Source of the DNA: Labilibacter sediminis
GTDB taxonomy: Bacteria; Bacteroidota; Bacteroidia; Bacteroidales; Marinilabiliaceae
Length of the DNA stretch: 64,000 bases
Direction: 5' to 3'
NCBI RefSeq assembly: GCF_005877885.1
Contig: NZ_VCHY01000014.1
Location: 1 to 64,000, forward strand
Shown here: piece by piece, positions 1,560 to 33,815 of the stretch
Layout of the letters: every line of letters starts with the position of its first letter
How positions within the stretch are numbered: position 1 is the first letter of the stretch
Notes under the pieces: model-generated
Database searches by the model: none
What the model was told of the DNA's origin: nothing
The model's input: the letters and a program-made list of their open reading frames with translations, nothing else
Position numbers and translations under genes: made by a program

Positions 1560-2076
1560 CTGCATTTGTTTGATTCTTGACGATTTATATGTATAAAAGA
1601 TGAGAAAAAGGGTAGGTCCGAACAATATAGTTATTAGCCTGACGGCTATGACCGGTAGGCAGGTTCTTGTGTGCCGTGCATGGTAAATAGCTAGGCGGTG
1701 AAAGTCCGCTGTGGGGGTTTGTAGTAGCCAACCACTAGCTTAAGGCAAGGGTGCTTGCCGTGAGGTATAACCTGAAGGAAGCCGGCGGCAAAGTTCCGAC
1801 CCGAGGGACACGAACATCATCAGGCATACCTGTTGGGATGAGTTTGCAAGACAAAACGAAGTCCAAATACTACACGGACAATGGGGTGTAAATGGTGCGG
1901 GTGCATGGAATGAAAGTTATTTACCTTACCGCGGGAGGTCTCACGGACGTACTGAAACAGCATATGAAGTACGGTCGCAAAAGGTTTGTCGTGAGGAGTC
2001 AGCCGAGGCCATAGTATTCGGCATTCGCCGGAGAAGGGCTGAATCTCAATTAACAGTATTAAATGAAAGTTACCAT

Positions 2077-3477
2077 ATGGTTGGCATAAAACAGAATACT
2101 TTGGAAACAACCAAAGCCTACTTGCGCCTACAAGGTGCGGAACACGGAGGACGTGCAAGAGGGTTTACATCTGTATGGATAACTGAAAACAATGCTGTAA
2201 CACCGCCCGAAGAAGATGGGCTTATTGGAAAGATATTGTGCCCTTATAATCTGAACAAAGCTTATTTAAAGGTCTGCAGGAACAAGGGTAACCATGGGGT
2301 TGATGGATTAAAGATCGAGTCATTAAAAGATTATCTTGTCAACCATGGGTCAGAACTGGTATGCTCCATCAGAAACGGGAAGTATCGTCCGAACCCAGTG
2401 CGTAGGGTTGAAATTCCTAAAGACGGGCACTCAACACGCCCTCTCGGGATTCCGACAGTAGTAGACAGGTTGGTTCAGCAGGCGATACACCAGGTTTTAT
2501 CACCTATTTACGAACAGCAGTTCTCGGATAACAGCTTTGGTTTCCGGCCAAAGCGAAGTGCCCACCATGCACTATTTCGCAGCAAAGAAATAATATCAGA
2601 AGGATATAATTACGCTGTGGACATGGATATGGAGAAATTCTTTGACACGGTGAACCATAGTAAGCTGGTAGAGGTATTGTCACGAACCATTAAAGATGGT
2701 CGGGTAATCGCGTTGATACACAAGTACCTTAATGCGGGTGTGGTAGTTAATCATGAGTTCGAGGATACAGAACAGGGGGTTCCGCAAGGAGGTCCGCTTA
2801 GTCCACTGTTGAGCAATATTGTTCTAAACGAATTGGATAAGGAATTAATTGCTCGAGGCCACCGTTTTGTTCGATATGCAGACGATATGGTTATCTTTTG
2901 CAGGAGCAAACGGGCAGGCGAACGCATCAAGATAAGCGTCACCAGTTTTATCGAGAACCGTCTGTTTCTAAAAGTAAACAGGGATAAAACATCAGTAGTC
3001 TACTTTTCCAATATCAAGTTATTAGGCTACTCTTTCTACCAAATTAAAGGTGAGGTTCGATTTCGGATTCATCCCAAGAGCATACAGAAGATGCGATCCA
3101 AAATCAAGGAACTCACAGGTAGGAGCAATGGACTAGGAAACGAGGCACGCAAGAAGAAGTTATCCTACTTTATAAAAGGATGGATAAACTACTTTAAGTA
3201 TGCAGATATTAAGAACTTGCTGATTAAAACAGATTCTTGGTATCGTCATAGGTTACGGATAGTTATCTGGAAACAATGGAAGGAAATCAGGGCAAAGTGG
3301 CGTAATCTTGTCAAGCTTGGTATTAATAAATTCAAAGCTTGGGAATATGCCAATACCCGAAAAGGATATTGGCACATCGCTAATAGTTATATTCTTACCA
3401 AGAGTATTACCAATAACCGACTATGTCAAGCTGGTTATACAATGTTTTCGGATTATTACAAACTGGTGCGGGTGTGA
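2077..3477 (+). CDS. ltrA: group II intron reverse transcriptase/maturase
   Basis: This 466-residue intron-encoded protein promotes splicing of its own intron and reverse transcription into new target sites. Visible features are the RT N-terminal blocks (GVDGLKIESLKDYL, RPLGIPTVVDRLVQQA), fingers/palm motif QGVPQGGPLSPLLSNI, catalytic RYADDMVIF at about residue 265, and a C-terminal maturase domain (WINYFKY, WKQWKEI, AWEYANTRKGYWHIANS). No H-N-H endonuclease domain follows, so retrohoming would depend on other sources of primer. The frame is intact and the YADD box is complete, so the protein could be active. Start ATG 2077 is the first in frame after the structured 5' RNA; a later start is possible. 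Confidence 0.93.
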   Translation: MVGIKQNTLETTKAYLRLQGAEHGGRARGFTSVWITENNAVTPPEEDGLIGKILCPYNLNKAYLKVCRNKGNHGVDGLKIESLKDYLVNHGSELVCSIRNGKYRPNPVRRVEIPKDGHSTRPLGIPTVVDRLVQQAIHQVLSPIYEQQFSDNSFGFRPKRSAHHALFRSKEIISEGYNYAVDMDMEKFFDTVNHSKLVEVLSRTIKDGRVIALIHKYLNAGVVVNHEFEDTEQGVPQGGPLSPLLSNIVLNELDKELIARGHRFVRYADDMVIFCRSKRAGERIKISVTSFIENRLFLKVNRDKTSVVYFSNIKLLGYSFYQIKGEVRFRIHPKSIQKMRSKIKELTGRSNGLGNEARKKKLSYFIKGWINYFKYADIKNLLIKTDSWYRHRLRIVIWKQWKEIRAKWRNLVKLGINKFKAWEYANTRKGYWHIANSYILTKSITNNRLCQAGYTMFSDYYKLVRV

Positions 3478-3484
3478 TTGGGAA

Positions 3485-3516
3485 ACCGCCGTATACGGAA
3501 CCGTATGTACGGTGGT
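3485..3516 (+). ncRNA. group II intron domain V hairpin
   Basis: ACCGCCGTATACGG and CCGTATGTACGGTGGT form a hairpin of about 32 bases, 7 bases after the maturase stop. The 5' strand contains CGC, a known variant of the catalytic AGC triad. Size, position and the internal bulge fit domain V. The next 50 bases (GTGGGAGGTGCACCAGTGAG paired with CTCACTGG...CTACCC) fit domain VI. Confidence 0.8.
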
Positions 3517-3632
3517 GTGGGAGGTGCACCAGTGAGGCTTACTCTCTCACTGGCCATCTACCCGATTGATTTTAGTGTATTGATTTGGTTTTTAGTAATT
3601 TTATCATCAGGCGGCGCAAATAGCAGTGCAAT

Positions 3633-28415: not shown

Positions 28416-28712
28416 ATGAATTTAGATCCCAACGCAATTGATCATCAAAAGTTAGCCAGGTATGCTAAAGCTTTATCACATCCTATCAGAATATATGTGT
28501 TAAAGTTATTGTCGCAGCAAGCGTGCTGTTATAGCGGAGATCTTAGTGAGGAGTTGCCTATTGCAAAATCTACATTATCGCAACATCTAAAGGAGCTTAA
28601 AGATGCAGGATTGATTCAGGGAGAAATAGAAACACCAAGAATTAAGTATTGTACAAACAAAGAAAACTGGCAGGAGGCGCAGCAGTTATTTAAAGGTTTG
28701 TTTGATCTGTAA
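28416..28712 (+). CDS. arsR: ArsR-family winged-helix repressor
   Basis: A 98-residue DNA-binding protein. The winged helix is clear: ALSHPIRIYVLKLLSQQ, then SEELPIAKSTLSQHLKELK as the recognition helix, and wing residues up to GEIETPRIKYC. Cysteines 37 and 38 (QQACCYSGD) sit before the recognition helix and, with Cys at about 82 (KYCTNKE), are candidate As(III) ligands, though this is not the classical ELCVCDL box. ArsR repressors leave DNA on binding the metalloid. It overlaps its own operator region and heads an operon with ArsE-, ArsF-, ArsG- and ArsP-like genes. Confidence 0.92.
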   Translation: MNLDPNAIDHQKLARYAKALSHPIRIYVLKLLSQQACCYSGDLSEELPIAKSTLSQHLKELKDAGLIQGEIETPRIKYCTNKENWQEAQQLFKGLFDL

Positions 28713-28733
28713 TAAAAAAAATTTAAATATAAT

Positions 28734-28751
28734 GTTCGTTGTTTTGCGAAC
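28734..28751 (+). promoter_or_regulatory. second ArsR operator O2 upstream of the thioredoxin gene
   Basis: GTTCGT-tgtttt-GCGAAC has the same arms (one base changed) and the same total length of 18 bases as O1 at 28394-28411. It lies in the 74-base gap between arsR and the thioredoxin-like gene. It may control an internal promoter or increase repressor occupancy. Confidence 0.7.
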
Positions 28752-28786
28752 AACTATTTAAAATCATTATTAAAAACTTGAATAGT

Positions 28787-29017
28787 ATGGATATTAAAGT
28801 ATTAGGTACAGGTTGTGCTAAGTGTAACACGCTTGAAAAAGTGACCAAAGAGGCCATAGCTGAATTAGGTATTGATGCAACAGTAACAAAGGTTGAGGAT
28901 TTTATTAAAATTTTAGAGTTTGGCGTAATGACAACACCAGCTTTGGTAGTTGATGGCAAGGTGGTAGTTAAAGGTAAAGTACCAAAGGTGTCCGAAATCA
29001 AAGAACTCTTAAAGTAA
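28787..29017 (+). CDS. ArsE-like small thioredoxin-fold protein
   Basis: A 76-residue redox protein of the glutaredoxin/thioredoxin-like TM0996 family. The CxxC is in GTGCAKCNTLEKV (Cys10 and Cys13). The cis-proline is in GVMTTPALVVDGKVV, and the end KGKVPKVSEIKELL is typical. In arsEFG clusters described in Shewanella, a small thioredoxin-like protein works with ArsF in reduction of nitroaromatic arsenicals; the same gene order here suggests the same role, which is inference. A longer frame is open to 28739, but ATG 28787 matches the family start. Next gene begins 29 bases on. Confidence 0.88.
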   Translation: MDIKVLGTGCAKCNTLEKVTKEAIAELGIDATVTKVEDFIKILEFGVMTTPALVVDGKVVVKGKVPKVSEIKELLK

Positions 29018-29046
29018 AAAAGGTATTCACTAATTAAAATTAAGCT

Positions 29047-29544
29047 ATGAACTCTATTGTATCCAGTGCACTGGTTGTATTTGTTTTATTATTGTCAGGT
29101 TGTAATTCATCCACAAAAAAAGTGGCTCAAAGTAGTGAGAAGGCAGAATGTTGTGCCCCTAAAGAAGTTGTAAAAACTTCGTGTTGTTCTTCCGGCCATA
29201 ACACTAAAAATGAAAAATCCGAGGATGTTGTGTCAGACTCTAAAGTGATGGTCTATTATTTTCACGGAACTCGTCGCTGCGAGACTTGCCAGGCAGTTGA
29301 GAAGGTAACAAGAGAAACTGTTCAATCTGTATTTCCGGATCAAGCTATTTTTACTTCGTTAAGTCGTGATGATGAGAAAGTAAAGAGTATGTTGGAAAAA
29401 TATTCTGTAAGCGGACAAACATTAATTGTTGTGCAAGGGGATAAGGTGAAGAATATTACCAATGAGGCCTTTTTATATGCGCGTAGCAATCCCAAGAAAC
29501 TGCAGGCAAAGTTGACTTCTACCATAGAATCAATACTTAAATAA
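29047..29544 (+). CDS. arsF: ArsF-like lipoprotein (nitrophenyl compound nitroreductase subunit family)
   Basis: A 165-residue lipoprotein with signal peptide and lipobox LLSGC (Cys19). It has paired cysteines CC at 35-36 and 46-47 and a CxxC in GTRRCETCQAVEKV (Cys78, Cys81). The VYYFHGTRRCETCQAVE segment marks the family annotated as ArsF, proposed to reduce nitro groups of aromatic arsenicals together with ArsE. The CC pairs may bind As(III) or other soft metals. It is exported and tethered to a membrane. It ends one base before the ArsG-like start, so the two are coupled. Confidence 0.85.
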   Translation: MNSIVSSALVVFVLLLSGCNSSTKKVAQSSEKAECCAPKEVVKTSCCSSGHNTKNEKSEDVVSDSKVMVYYFHGTRRCETCQAVEKVTRETVQSVFPDQAIFTSLSRDDEKVKSMLEKYSVSGQTLIVVQGDKVKNITNEAFLYARSNPKKLQAKLTSTIESILK

Positions 29545-29545
29545 G

Positions 29546-30256
29546 ATGGAAATTTTAAATAGCCTTCTTGAAAATTCTCAATTCCCGATTTTATCTGCTT
29601 TTATATTGGGACTTATGACAGCCATAAGTCCCTGCCCAATGGCCACCAATATTACCGCTATTGGTTTTATCAGTAAAGACATTGAAAATCAGAAAAGAGT
29701 ATTTTTTAATGGAATCATTTATACTTTAGGACGTGGAGTTTCTTATTCCTTAATTGGCATTTTATTCTTTTTGGGAGCCAGTCAGTTGGCTTTGGGCGAT
29801 TTCTTTCAAACTTGGGGTGAGCGTATTATCGGGCCTCTTCTTTTGTTAATTGGTCTTTTCATGTTGGGCGTGATAAAAATTAACTTACCGGGAGGATTAT
29901 CCATAAACAATAAATTGGAGAATATCTCTAAAAAAGGTTTTATAGGTGTTTTTTTATTGGGATTGGTATTTGCCCTGGCCTTTTGTCCGTATAGCGGAGT
30001 TCTTTATTTTGGAATGTTAATACCTATCACCATTAGTCATGCAGGAGGTTTGTATTTACCCGTTGTTTTTGCAATAGCAACTGGTCTTCCCGTTATATTA
30101 TTTGCATGGATATTAGCTTTCAGTATTGGCTCTGTCGGTACCTTTTATAATCAAATGAAGAAGTTTGAAATATGGTTTCGACGAATAATTGCCTGTGTTT
30201 TTATACTGTTTGGCCTTTACTATATCCTCATCATATTTTTAGGCCTGCAACTATAA
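29546..30256 (+). CDS. arsG: ArsG-like efflux permease (CcdA/DsbD-type membrane protein)
   Basis: A 236-residue membrane protein with six predicted helices. It has the DsbD/CcdA-like loop GLMTAISPCPMATNITAIGF with a single Cys in each half (SPCP and FCPYSGVL), separated by three helices. This is the family annotated as aromatic aminobenzylarsenical efflux permease ArsG. The cysteines may relay thiols to, or accept substrate from, the ArsF lipoprotein. It starts one base after arsF ends and is followed directly by the ArsP-type permease. Export of reduced arsenicals is inferred from the operon, not shown by the sequence. Confidence 0.82.
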   Translation: MEILNSLLENSQFPILSAFILGLMTAISPCPMATNITAIGFISKDIENQKRVFFNGIIYTLGRGVSYSLIGILFFLGASQLALGDFFQTWGERIIGPLLLLIGLFMLGVIKINLPGGLSINNKLENISKKGFIGVFLLGLVFALAFCPYSGVLYFGMLIPITISHAGGLYLPVVFAIATGLPVILFAWILAFSIGSVGTFYNQMKKFEIWFRRIIACVFILFGLYYILIIFLGLQL

Positions 30257-30286
30257 TTGGGAGTTTCAGAATATAATTTTAAAGTG

Positions 30287-31321
30287 ATGCAAAAATTAAT
30301 TTCATTGAATAAAAGTGTTTGGACATTTCCTGTATTATTGTTGCCCATATGGATATTACTATATGTAAATCTTTGGTCAATGGCCGATTTTTTAACCTAT
30401 TCGGTTTTAAATTTTAACCAAGGAGAGCACTTAACAGAGTCCGTTTTTTTCTTTATATATGAAGTGCCTAAAGTTATGTTGTTACTGGTACTTATTATAT
30501 ATGCTGTTGGCGTATTACGTACCTTTTTTACAACAGAAAAGACACGAAAAATATTGGAGGGAAAATCCTTATTTACCGGAAATGTAATGGGAGCTGTTCT
30601 GGGAGTACTAACTCCATTTTGTTCATGTTCTGCCATTCCTTTGTTTCTTGGTTTTGTTGAAGCCGGCGTACCGCTGGGTGTAACTTTTTCGTTTTTAATA
30701 GCGGCTCCAATGATTAACGAAGTGGCTCTGGTACTGTTAGCTGGTTTATTTGGATGGAAAGTAGCATTAATATATGTAGGTACAGGATTGTTTATTGCTA
30801 TTTTTTCAGGTTGGTTAATAGGTAAATTAAAACTCGAAAAATATGTGGCAGACTGGGTTTACCAGATAAAGACAAACGCTGAAGAAACCGAATCAGAACA
30901 ACTTACCTTTAACGACAGGATAATCGGTGGTTTTACTGCAGTGAAAGAAATTGTAGGAAAAATATGGATTTATATTCTTATTGGTATTGCTATTGGTGCC
31001 GGAGCTCATGGTTATGTTCCTGAAGATTTTATGAGTAACTTATTAGGGGCTGATAATTGGTATGGTGTACCATTGGCTATATTGATTGGAGTGCCTATGT
31101 ATTCAAATGCGGCAGGCATAATTCCTATAGTTAGCGTATTAATTGAAAAAGGGGTTTCATTAGGAACCGCACTCGCTTTTATGATGTCTGTGATCGCTTT
31201 ATCATTGCCTGAGATCATAATTCTGAAAAAAGTTTTAAAATGGCAATTGATAGCTGCTTTTGTAGGTATTGTTGCCACGGGAATAATTGTGGTAGGATTT
31301 GTTTTTAATTATCTGATATAA
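30287..31321 (+). CDS. ArsP_1/YraQ-type permease
   Basis: A 344-residue membrane protein with about eight helices. It carries the family motif TPFCSCSAIPLFLGF (Cys-Ser-Cys) followed by AGVPLGVTFSFLIAAPMINEVA, a second half with GVPMYSNAAGIIPIV and a SLPEIIILKKVL end. ArsP permeases export trivalent organoarsenicals. In this operon that role is likely, and some relatives serve other soft metals. An upstream TTG at 30257 is open in frame; I preferred ATG 30287 because the protein then starts like its relatives. It ends the operon. Confidence 0.85.
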   Translation: MQKLISLNKSVWTFPVLLLPIWILLYVNLWSMADFLTYSVLNFNQGEHLTESVFFFIYEVPKVMLLLVLIIYAVGVLRTFFTTEKTRKILEGKSLFTGNVMGAVLGVLTPFCSCSAIPLFLGFVEAGVPLGVTFSFLIAAPMINEVALVLLAGLFGWKVALIYVGTGLFIAIFSGWLIGKLKLEKYVADWVYQIKTNAEETESEQLTFNDRIIGGFTAVKEIVGKIWIYILIGIAIGAGAHGYVPEDFMSNLLGADNWYGVPLAILIGVPMYSNAAGIIPIVSVLIEKGVSLGTALAFMMSVIALSLPEIIILKKVLKWQLIAAFVGIVATGIIVVGFVFNYLI

Positions 31322-31411: not shown

Positions 31412-32556
31412 TTAGGCTCTTCCGCAACATACTTTAAATTTCTTACCGCTATTACATGGGCATGGACAGTTTCGGCCAATACTTAAGTTCTTTTTATTCA
31501 GGTCTCTTGCTGTCATATCCTGTTGAAATATCTTTTCAAGAAGATCATATAATTCAGGATGGTTTTTTTCAAGTAGTTTGGGGCGTTCAAAAAAGTACTC
31601 ACTTATTACCGAAAAGAATTCGGCTCTATTGGTCCCTCCATAAGGGTTGATATCAGAATTTTGCTCATATATTTCGTCAATCTTTTTATTAACCTGAGTT
31701 CGACATAAAATTATTGGCTCAGACCGCTTATTAATATTGAGTTTCAAGAAATATTTGTGAAGGTATAGCGGGCTATATCAAACAAATATGACGCAGAAAA
31801 TCGATGTTAATAAGTGGTTTTACTTGAACTTTTTATTAAAACACTAATCTACTGCATAAAATAATATTAACATAGCTCGCTATGCCAATATTATTTTGCT
31901 TGTATATCAGTATTTTAGATAAAATCTGAGTTAAATAATTTTAATCGAACTCAGGTTATTGATTAAATCAATCCAGGGAATTGAATATTGCTTATCCAAA
32001 AGAAGGGAAGGAATACCATCAATGGTTCCGTCTGTTTTATCTATCAAATACACAAACTCATGAATAGAAGTGTTTTTTTTATCCGATGTGTTTTTAAAGC
32101 ATGTCTTAGTGCTTGCTGCGATAACACCATTTTGCCTTCCATGTATCCACTACCAACCATTCCAAGTATTTGTCGGTTTTCTCCAGCCGTTTCAAATTTT
32201 TCATTGAAAGATGAAGGATAAAGCAATACCTCATTAATATTTGAATATTTCCAATCGTTAAAATTAAAAATTGGTATAACAGCACTTGATGCTACTAGTA
32301 TTTCATCAACGGTTTCAACTTTTGTTTCAATACCGGTAATTTTACAATTCAGTAAAAACTCATGGACTTTAAATTCAAATCTTTCTTTTTCCTCTTTGCT
32401 AAGAGAATTATAAAACAATACCTCCCGGATTAATATGTTTCTCCATTGAGGTGGGAAAGGTGTTTTGGGGGTTTTCCATGAAGAATCTGAACGGTTATAT
32501 TTTTTGAAAATTAGGAAACCGATTACCGCAATAATAAGTAAATATAAAACATTCAT
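31412..32556 (-). pseudogene. mtfA: mtfA-like zinc peptidase gene with SEC-C tail, inactivated
   Basis: MtfA proteins are zinc metallopeptidases (M90; in E. coli linked to Mlc control). The N-terminal part reads from 32556: FPPQWRNILIREVLFYNSL and VLSQQALRH. At about 32100 a one-base loss shifts the frame (an expected HGFKN becomes HALKT) and the ORF stops at 32044. In the other frame the protein continues as NTSDKKNTSIHEFVYLIDK, where the second zinc histidine of HExxH is Tyr (32048-32062). A 267-bp element (31691-31957) then splits the gene. Deleting it and one 3-bp duplication joins PWIDLIN to KKIDEIYEQNSD in frame, leading to NPYGGTNRAEFF and a C-terminal SEC-C motif (CPCPCNSGKKFKVCC). 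Three lesions make it a clear pseudogene. Confidence 0.92.
31691..31957. mobile_element. 267-bp MITE-like element inserted in mtfA
   Basis: Terminal inverted repeats of about 24 bases, AACCTGAGTTCGA... at 31691-31715 and its complement at 31934-31957, match except for an indel and a substitution. The 3-bp duplication ATT flanks it (31688-31690 and 31958-31960). It has no ORF of its own. Two internal hairpins are TATAGC-GG-GCTATA within ATATTTGT/ACAAATAT arms (31751-31789) and CATAGC-TC-GCTATG within AAAATAATATT/AATATTATTTT arms (31858-31897). The mobilising transposase is not in the window. Confidence 0.9.
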
Positions 32557-33559: not shown

Positions 33560-33815
33560 CCCTGTATGTTCTCTGGTTAATGCTTTTTAGTGTCTGGTTG
33601 CCTTTTTGCCGCCTTTAAAGCGCATTTCTCCCTGTTCGGTAGGCTCTTTGTCCGCTTTAATGTGCATGTTTACCTGTCTGGTAAACCTATTAACCTGTCT
33701 GGTAAACATTTTGTCCCCTCTGGTAGGTGTTCTAACCTCTTCGGTAGGTTTAACTACCCCTCTGGTAGCTATTTTTACCTGTCTGGTAGGTTCTATAACT
33801 TCTCTGGTAGCTCTA
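33560..33815. repeat. 21-bp-period minisatellite, 12 phases
   Basis: The hexamer TCTGGT (or TTCGGT) occurs at 33572 + 21n for n = 0, 1, 3, 5, 6, 7, 8, 9, 10 and 11; phases 2 and 4 are degenerate. A fuller unit looks like nnnnnACCTGTCTGGTAGGT. Because the period is seven codons, the minus strand reads as a heptapeptide repeat (TRQV-xxx) and the plus strand as another. No ATG start with supporting signal is seen, so it is treated as a DNA repeat. Confidence 0.85.

Follow-up and report, generated by a model that had tools for sequence, protein, structure and literature searches.

An M90 metallopeptidase gene of Labilibacter sediminis, very probably inactivated recently by three lesions that include an IS982-type MITE

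Do the short open reading frames on the minus strand at positions 31412–32556 of our window, a 64,000-nucleotide stretch of the Labilibacter sediminis genome, encode separate proteins or are they the remains of one gene? An initial annotation, made from the letters alone, had warned that ORF calls would list two small proteins where there is one decaying zinc peptidase gene. Profile comparison confirmed that this region holds three out-of-register pieces of a single M90 (MtfA-type) peptidase gene with a SEC-C motif. Searched separately, the three minus-strand pieces align to successive parts of the 243-position profile of Peptidase_M90 (PF06167): the 5′ piece (32044–32556, a 170-aa ORF whose homology ends at a frame break near 32100) at positions 9–146 (E = 5e-24), the middle piece (31962–32062) at 152–185 (E = 3.6e-05), and the 3′ piece (31412–31686) at 190–243 (E = 4.4e-19). 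The outer pieces score 85.6 and 69.5 bits against a family cut-off of 26.2; the middle piece alone scores slightly below it at 23.9 bits, and a longer middle stretch reaches 32.6 bits. The proposed likeness to MtfA therefore stands, with the family corrected from DUF980 to M90, and the order of the pieces along the profile replaces the reading of two small proteins with that of one pseudogene. The 3′ piece also matches SEC-C (PF02810) at its C-terminal end; this tail, previously described as intact, is present and reads CPCNSG, as opposed to CPCGSG in homologues of the congener G005 (L032), Marinilabiliaceae MAG16 (L033) and an uncultured Carboxylicivirga (L088).

Each of the three lesions that had been proposed for this gene is real by comparison with homologues. 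The segment HGF.N.SDKKN.. lies in a single frame in L032, L033 and L088 and is split over two frames in the window, with one change seen in this comparison set, a one-base frame break near 32100 (approximately 32092–32106, minus strand) where a frameshift had been predicted. Slippage at an A8 run was considered as the source of the frameshift and rejected: L088 has an A8 run of identical length and in identical register, and the break comes before the run. We regard it as unlikely, though well short of negligible, that the break is an assembly error and that only the MITE and the exchange of His for Tyr disrupted the gene: the assembly is a draft in 372 contigs, but the break sits in mixed sequence and not in the nearby A8 run. 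The other two lesions are independent of the frame break and would stand even if this single-base difference were an error of assembly.

The second lesion is at 32048–32062 (minus strand), the start of the middle piece, where the window gene reads HEFVY and has lost a zinc ligand, as first noticed. HExxH is found in 80 of 80 homologues (the best 80 of at least 522), comprising 66 with HEFVH, 10 with HEFIH, one each with HEFAH and HEFTH, and two further loci reading HEFSH (L154) and HEFVH (L160); the homologue loci were chosen with a pair of peptide patterns, of which one requires IHEF and neither requires the second His. Across 81 homologues (the best 80 of at least 522 plus L032; L084 and L033 are one protein), conservation reaches 95% or more in 63 columns, and the window pieces differ at a single one of them, the second His of the motif (81/81), replaced by Tyr. 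With HEFVY where M90 proteins carry HExxH, the window gene is, judged by its sequence, a descendant of the M90 family and not a working member.

Relatives preserve intact versions of the gene. The nearest M90 homologue among the best 80 of at least 522 comes from an uncultured Carboxylicivirga, and the 5′ piece is 67.6% identical to L088 across 145 residues. The homologues in L032 and L088 are uninterrupted and carry HEFVH, and L088 DNA is continuous through the MITE target site; these intact homologues support the view of a decaying gene taken in the initial annotation, which had suggested looking in relatives for an intact allele. When 40 relatives were queried with the N-terminal piece, five matched at E ≤ 1e-5, every match in a stop-free frame, including a distant member (G023) with 26% identity that reads HELAH. 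The split arrangement in relatives, which the initial annotation had set as a refuting outcome, was not seen in this search. Relative-rate counts against L088 with four outgroups (27:16, 19:22, 26:19 and 21:27) reveal no clear amino-acid acceleration, and the decay would therefore be either recent or invisible in sequence; dN/dS is uninformative because of saturation at synonymous sites (pS 0.80 against L088). These counts, and the retention of 62 of the 63 strongly conserved positions, would also fit domestication, whereby one end of the gene, either the N-terminal piece of 170 aa or the C-terminal piece with SEC-C, survives as a small working protein. We consider this very improbable, since slow divergence is equally expected for a young pseudogene, the single changed conserved position is the zinc ligand, the C-terminal ORF as called (31412–31747) starts within the inserted MITE, and the split gene occurs in none of the five matching relatives among the 40 searched.

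A family search of the genome itself recovered the three window pieces and no other M90 locus, and within the genus M90 matches occur in two of nine genomes, the window genome and G005, with none in the other seven. On these grounds we take the enzyme to be dispensable and its gene here to be a young pseudogene, whose loss of function would be recent. The explanation that we hold with high confidence is that the locus is a recently inactivated M90 zinc metallopeptidase gene with a SEC-C tail, bearing three lesions, of which one is a MITE likely moved in trans by an IS982 transposase. Beyond the M90 gene, no ORF of at least 80 codons in the flanking DNA of 10 relatives matches the window. Convergent with the dead peptidase gene, genes for an ArsR-type regulator, two small cysteine-containing proteins, a DsbD_2 protein and an ArsP_1 permease lie in a row at 28416–31321 (plus strand). 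Elsewhere in the window, a group II intron at 1754–3566 (plus strand) is matched in order by Rfam RF02001, RF01998 and RF00029, and diverged 21-bp tandem repeats at 33677–33768 produce repetitive small ORFs on both strands.

What, then, interrupted the gene? The third lesion had been described as a 267-bp insertion accompanied by an ATT duplication. The insertion is there and the 270-bp sum is unchanged, but its parts divide differently: a 265-bp element at 31692–31956, with ends ACCTGAGTTCGA and TCGAACTCAGGT, lies between a left target copy TATTA (31687–31691) and a right target copy TATTG (31957–31961), which agree at four of five bases. The target has thus gained the element together with a 5-bp duplication that contains one mismatch, all ends being set by the IS982 convention (start AC). 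Chance match is excluded for the insertion because copies 97% identical to it lie elsewhere in the genome. At least 69 places in the genome match the element at E ≤ 0.01, partial and opposite-strand matches included and 40 of 87 first-look candidates scored. We examined 22 full-length copies, setting aside partial copies (L022–L024 and L026–L028) and two opposite-strand matches of included copies (L029 and L030). These copies span 260–284 bp at 28–33% G+C and contain no gene, the longest open stretch being 62 codons, and their ends show 0–2 mismatches in 13 of the 22. Short, multi-copy, bounded by terminal inverted repeats and free of transposase, the element has the features of a MITE.

Target duplications point to transposition of this element. 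Exact abutting duplications of 5–7 bp flank 17 of 22 copies, compared with a mean of 4.3 and a maximum of 12 when flanks were re-paired (10,000 trials), and 16 of the 17 have the form TA..TA; five copies, the window copy among them with its 4/5 bases, are without an exact 5-bp repeat. This count replaces an earlier one with AACC ends, in which 19 of 22 copies had duplications of at least 3 bp. Set against a consensus of the three copies nearest to it, the window copy has three private differences in 265 bp, as suits a young insertion. ORFs of at least 80 codons overlap no copy at 18 of 22 loci and overlap by 2 to 18 bp at four, a comparison in which a gene split by an insertion is invisible. 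At three loci (L008, L011 and L013) the stop codon of an adjoining ORF lies at the MITE edge, and the MITE may supply it. The outward promoter motif TAnnTTTG, a Bacteroidota motif, was absent from both strands of the five of 22 copies that were scanned. We found no literature on this peptidase/MITE locus in searches on Carboxylicivirga transposable elements, MITE compensatory hairpins and M90/MtfA pseudogenes.

The MITE is distributed across related genomes. With at most 18 candidates scored per genome, it was found in seven of 41: five of the nine genomes of the genus (the window genome included), one genome of another genus (G019) and, more weakly, one of another family (G028). The G028 matches number 18, at 68–75%, from 18 of 192 first-look candidates scored. 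The five genomes searched that hold intact M90 genes gave no MITE match, in a search run without a control. Spread on plasmids was considered and is not supported, as none of 72,556 plasmid records matches the element. Palindromes of about 40 bp resembling two MITE-like ends set back to back occur at L064 (1044–1083), L057 (near 1054) and L066 (near 875), and are possibly minimal elements or deletion products.

A candidate driver of the MITE is present in the same genome. Contig C332 of the window genome carries an element of approximately 1 kb (1028 bp by AC ends) with ends TAACGTGAGTTCGA and a single transposase, which matches NF033520 (transpos_IS982) at 273.6 bits against a cut-off of 130. 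AC-starting ends are common to the MITE and this IS982 element, and the MITE end ACCTGAGTTCGA is one base apart from the IS982 end ACGTGAGTTCGA; no complete IS982 element with exact MITE ends was found in the window genome, this one-base difference being the nearest. The exact MITE end TAACCTGAGTTCGA occurs in a truncated IS982 element of the congener G008, approximately 110 bp before the transposase start. The target duplication of the sole complete copy in the window genome is not clear by eye, and a relative of this element in G001 (L071) is flanked by TATTTTA on each side. IS982-like ends also occur no more than 80 bp from three further contig ends, which suggests additional IS982 copies that broke the assembly. 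Queried with the transposase of the window genome, six of 21 genomes match at E ≤ 1e-10. The MITE or weaker relatives of it occur in G003, G005 and G028, yet these three gave no match to that transposase at this threshold, which counts against the proposed driver.

From these likenesses we infer that the IS982 transposase of the window genome, or its kin, moves the MITE. In the scenario that we propose, the M90 gene would have, in whichever order, acquired a one-base frame break, exchanged the second His ligand of HExxH for Tyr and received a non-autonomous 265-bp MITE; an IS982-family transposase most likely recognizes the ACCTGAGTTCGA ends and moves the element in trans, and each transposition would duplicate 5–7 bp of TA-rich target. 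The insert, whose identity the initial annotation lacked, is by its ends and copies a mobile, multi-copy IS982-type MITE. This names the agent as a MITE family that is present in two or more genera of a single bacterial family and whose targets take the form TA..TA.

The 22 MITE copies have a common consensus fold of a terminal stem and two hairpins. With coordinates placed by hand from alignment columns, the terminal stem of the window copy is formed by 31692–31723 (left strand) and 31925–31956 (right strand; helices 1–2), the first internal hairpin occupies 31724–31817 (helices 3–6) and the second 31834–31921 (helices 7–9). The fold comprises 90 pairs with 96.6% of cells paired, and 28 of the 90 pairs have compensatory, both-sided changes. 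None of 500 shuffles, which ignore relatedness, reaches the values of the fold; in slid controls pairing never exceeds 38.5%, and no more than 10 pairs change on both sides. A FastTree tree of the copies requires a minimum of 40 switches between Watson-Crick types at 29 pairs, the types being counted slightly differently there. In four other genomes (G001, G003, G005 and G019), six copies folded separately show both-sided changes at 26 of 98 pairs; two of the eight relatives' loci (L041 and L043), which have no matching end pair, were left out. We consider this evidence for the fold strong and not strictly independent, as the six copies are related to the 22 and the fold was derived from the same alignment on which it was tested. 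Hairpin tips are CATAGC/GCTATG-like, and in three copies (L020, L021 and L025; alignment A3 columns 77–97) a CCTGC..GCAGG-like palindrome adds 21 bp close to the tip of what is, in A3 orientation, the first hairpin.

Selection on structure and arm-to-arm template switching alike predict the compensatory pattern. We offer only tentatively the idea that the MITE is more than a deleted IS, with a three-way fold under selection or active self-correction as a recognized cruciform in DNA, a structured RNA that is transcribed or a transposition intermediate; on that still doubtful reading, copies within one genome would keep pairing while their sequences drift. Should selection lie behind the compensatory changes, such bacterial MITEs would count as functional elements with a structure of their own, and would offer a natural test system for the upkeep of long imperfect palindromes. 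That the insert is instead a structured RNA or regulatory element merely resembling a MITE would suit the strong fold and its compensatory changes but is scarcely credible, given the IS982-type inverted repeats, the exact target duplications in 17 of 22 copies, the copy inside a gene, the resident IS982 transposase with ends one base different, and the lack of any Rfam family matching the element at gathering score. A regulatory role may exist on top of mobility, and we retain the mobile IS982-type MITE as the identity of the insert.

Both parts of the locus resemble described systems. The gene pieces match successive parts of the profile of peptidase M90, the family of MtfA (Mlc titration factor A; PDB 3dl1, 3khi and 9srw); the intact relative L033 matches the MtfA structure 3dl1 at 3.9e-14, with HEFVH aligned to HEVAH of 3dl1, whereas the window copy, with HEFVY, carries a frame shift and an interruption. 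Among M90 relatives, the SEC-C tail is present in L032, L033 and L088 and absent in L034 and L035. Like the IS982 family as described in PMC7335449, the MITE has ends that start with AC (so do 57 of 69 elements there) and short direct repeats that vary in length (2–10 bp in the family, when present); unlike it, the MITE has no transposase. The left end printed for Porphyromonas gingivalis MITE239, ACGTGAGTTCGATATAAAGGAA, is one base from the window MITE over its first 12 bases and identical there to the IS982 element of the window genome, a comparison of printed ends made by eye and exclusive of the body; in that source, the IS elements matching P. gingivalis MITE ends are all assigned to the IS5 family (PMC4596501). 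Cardinium cOegib has MITECca01, a derivative of ISCca4 (IS982 family), which is likewise transposase-less and multi-copy (approximately 240 bp, 169 copies); its inverted repeats closely resemble those of an IS982-family element that the Cardinium genome also carries, and its host and IS are different ones (PMC9769881). IS982-derived MITEs are thus already published from Cardinium (PMC9769881), and the MITE family described here is a further member of that kind.
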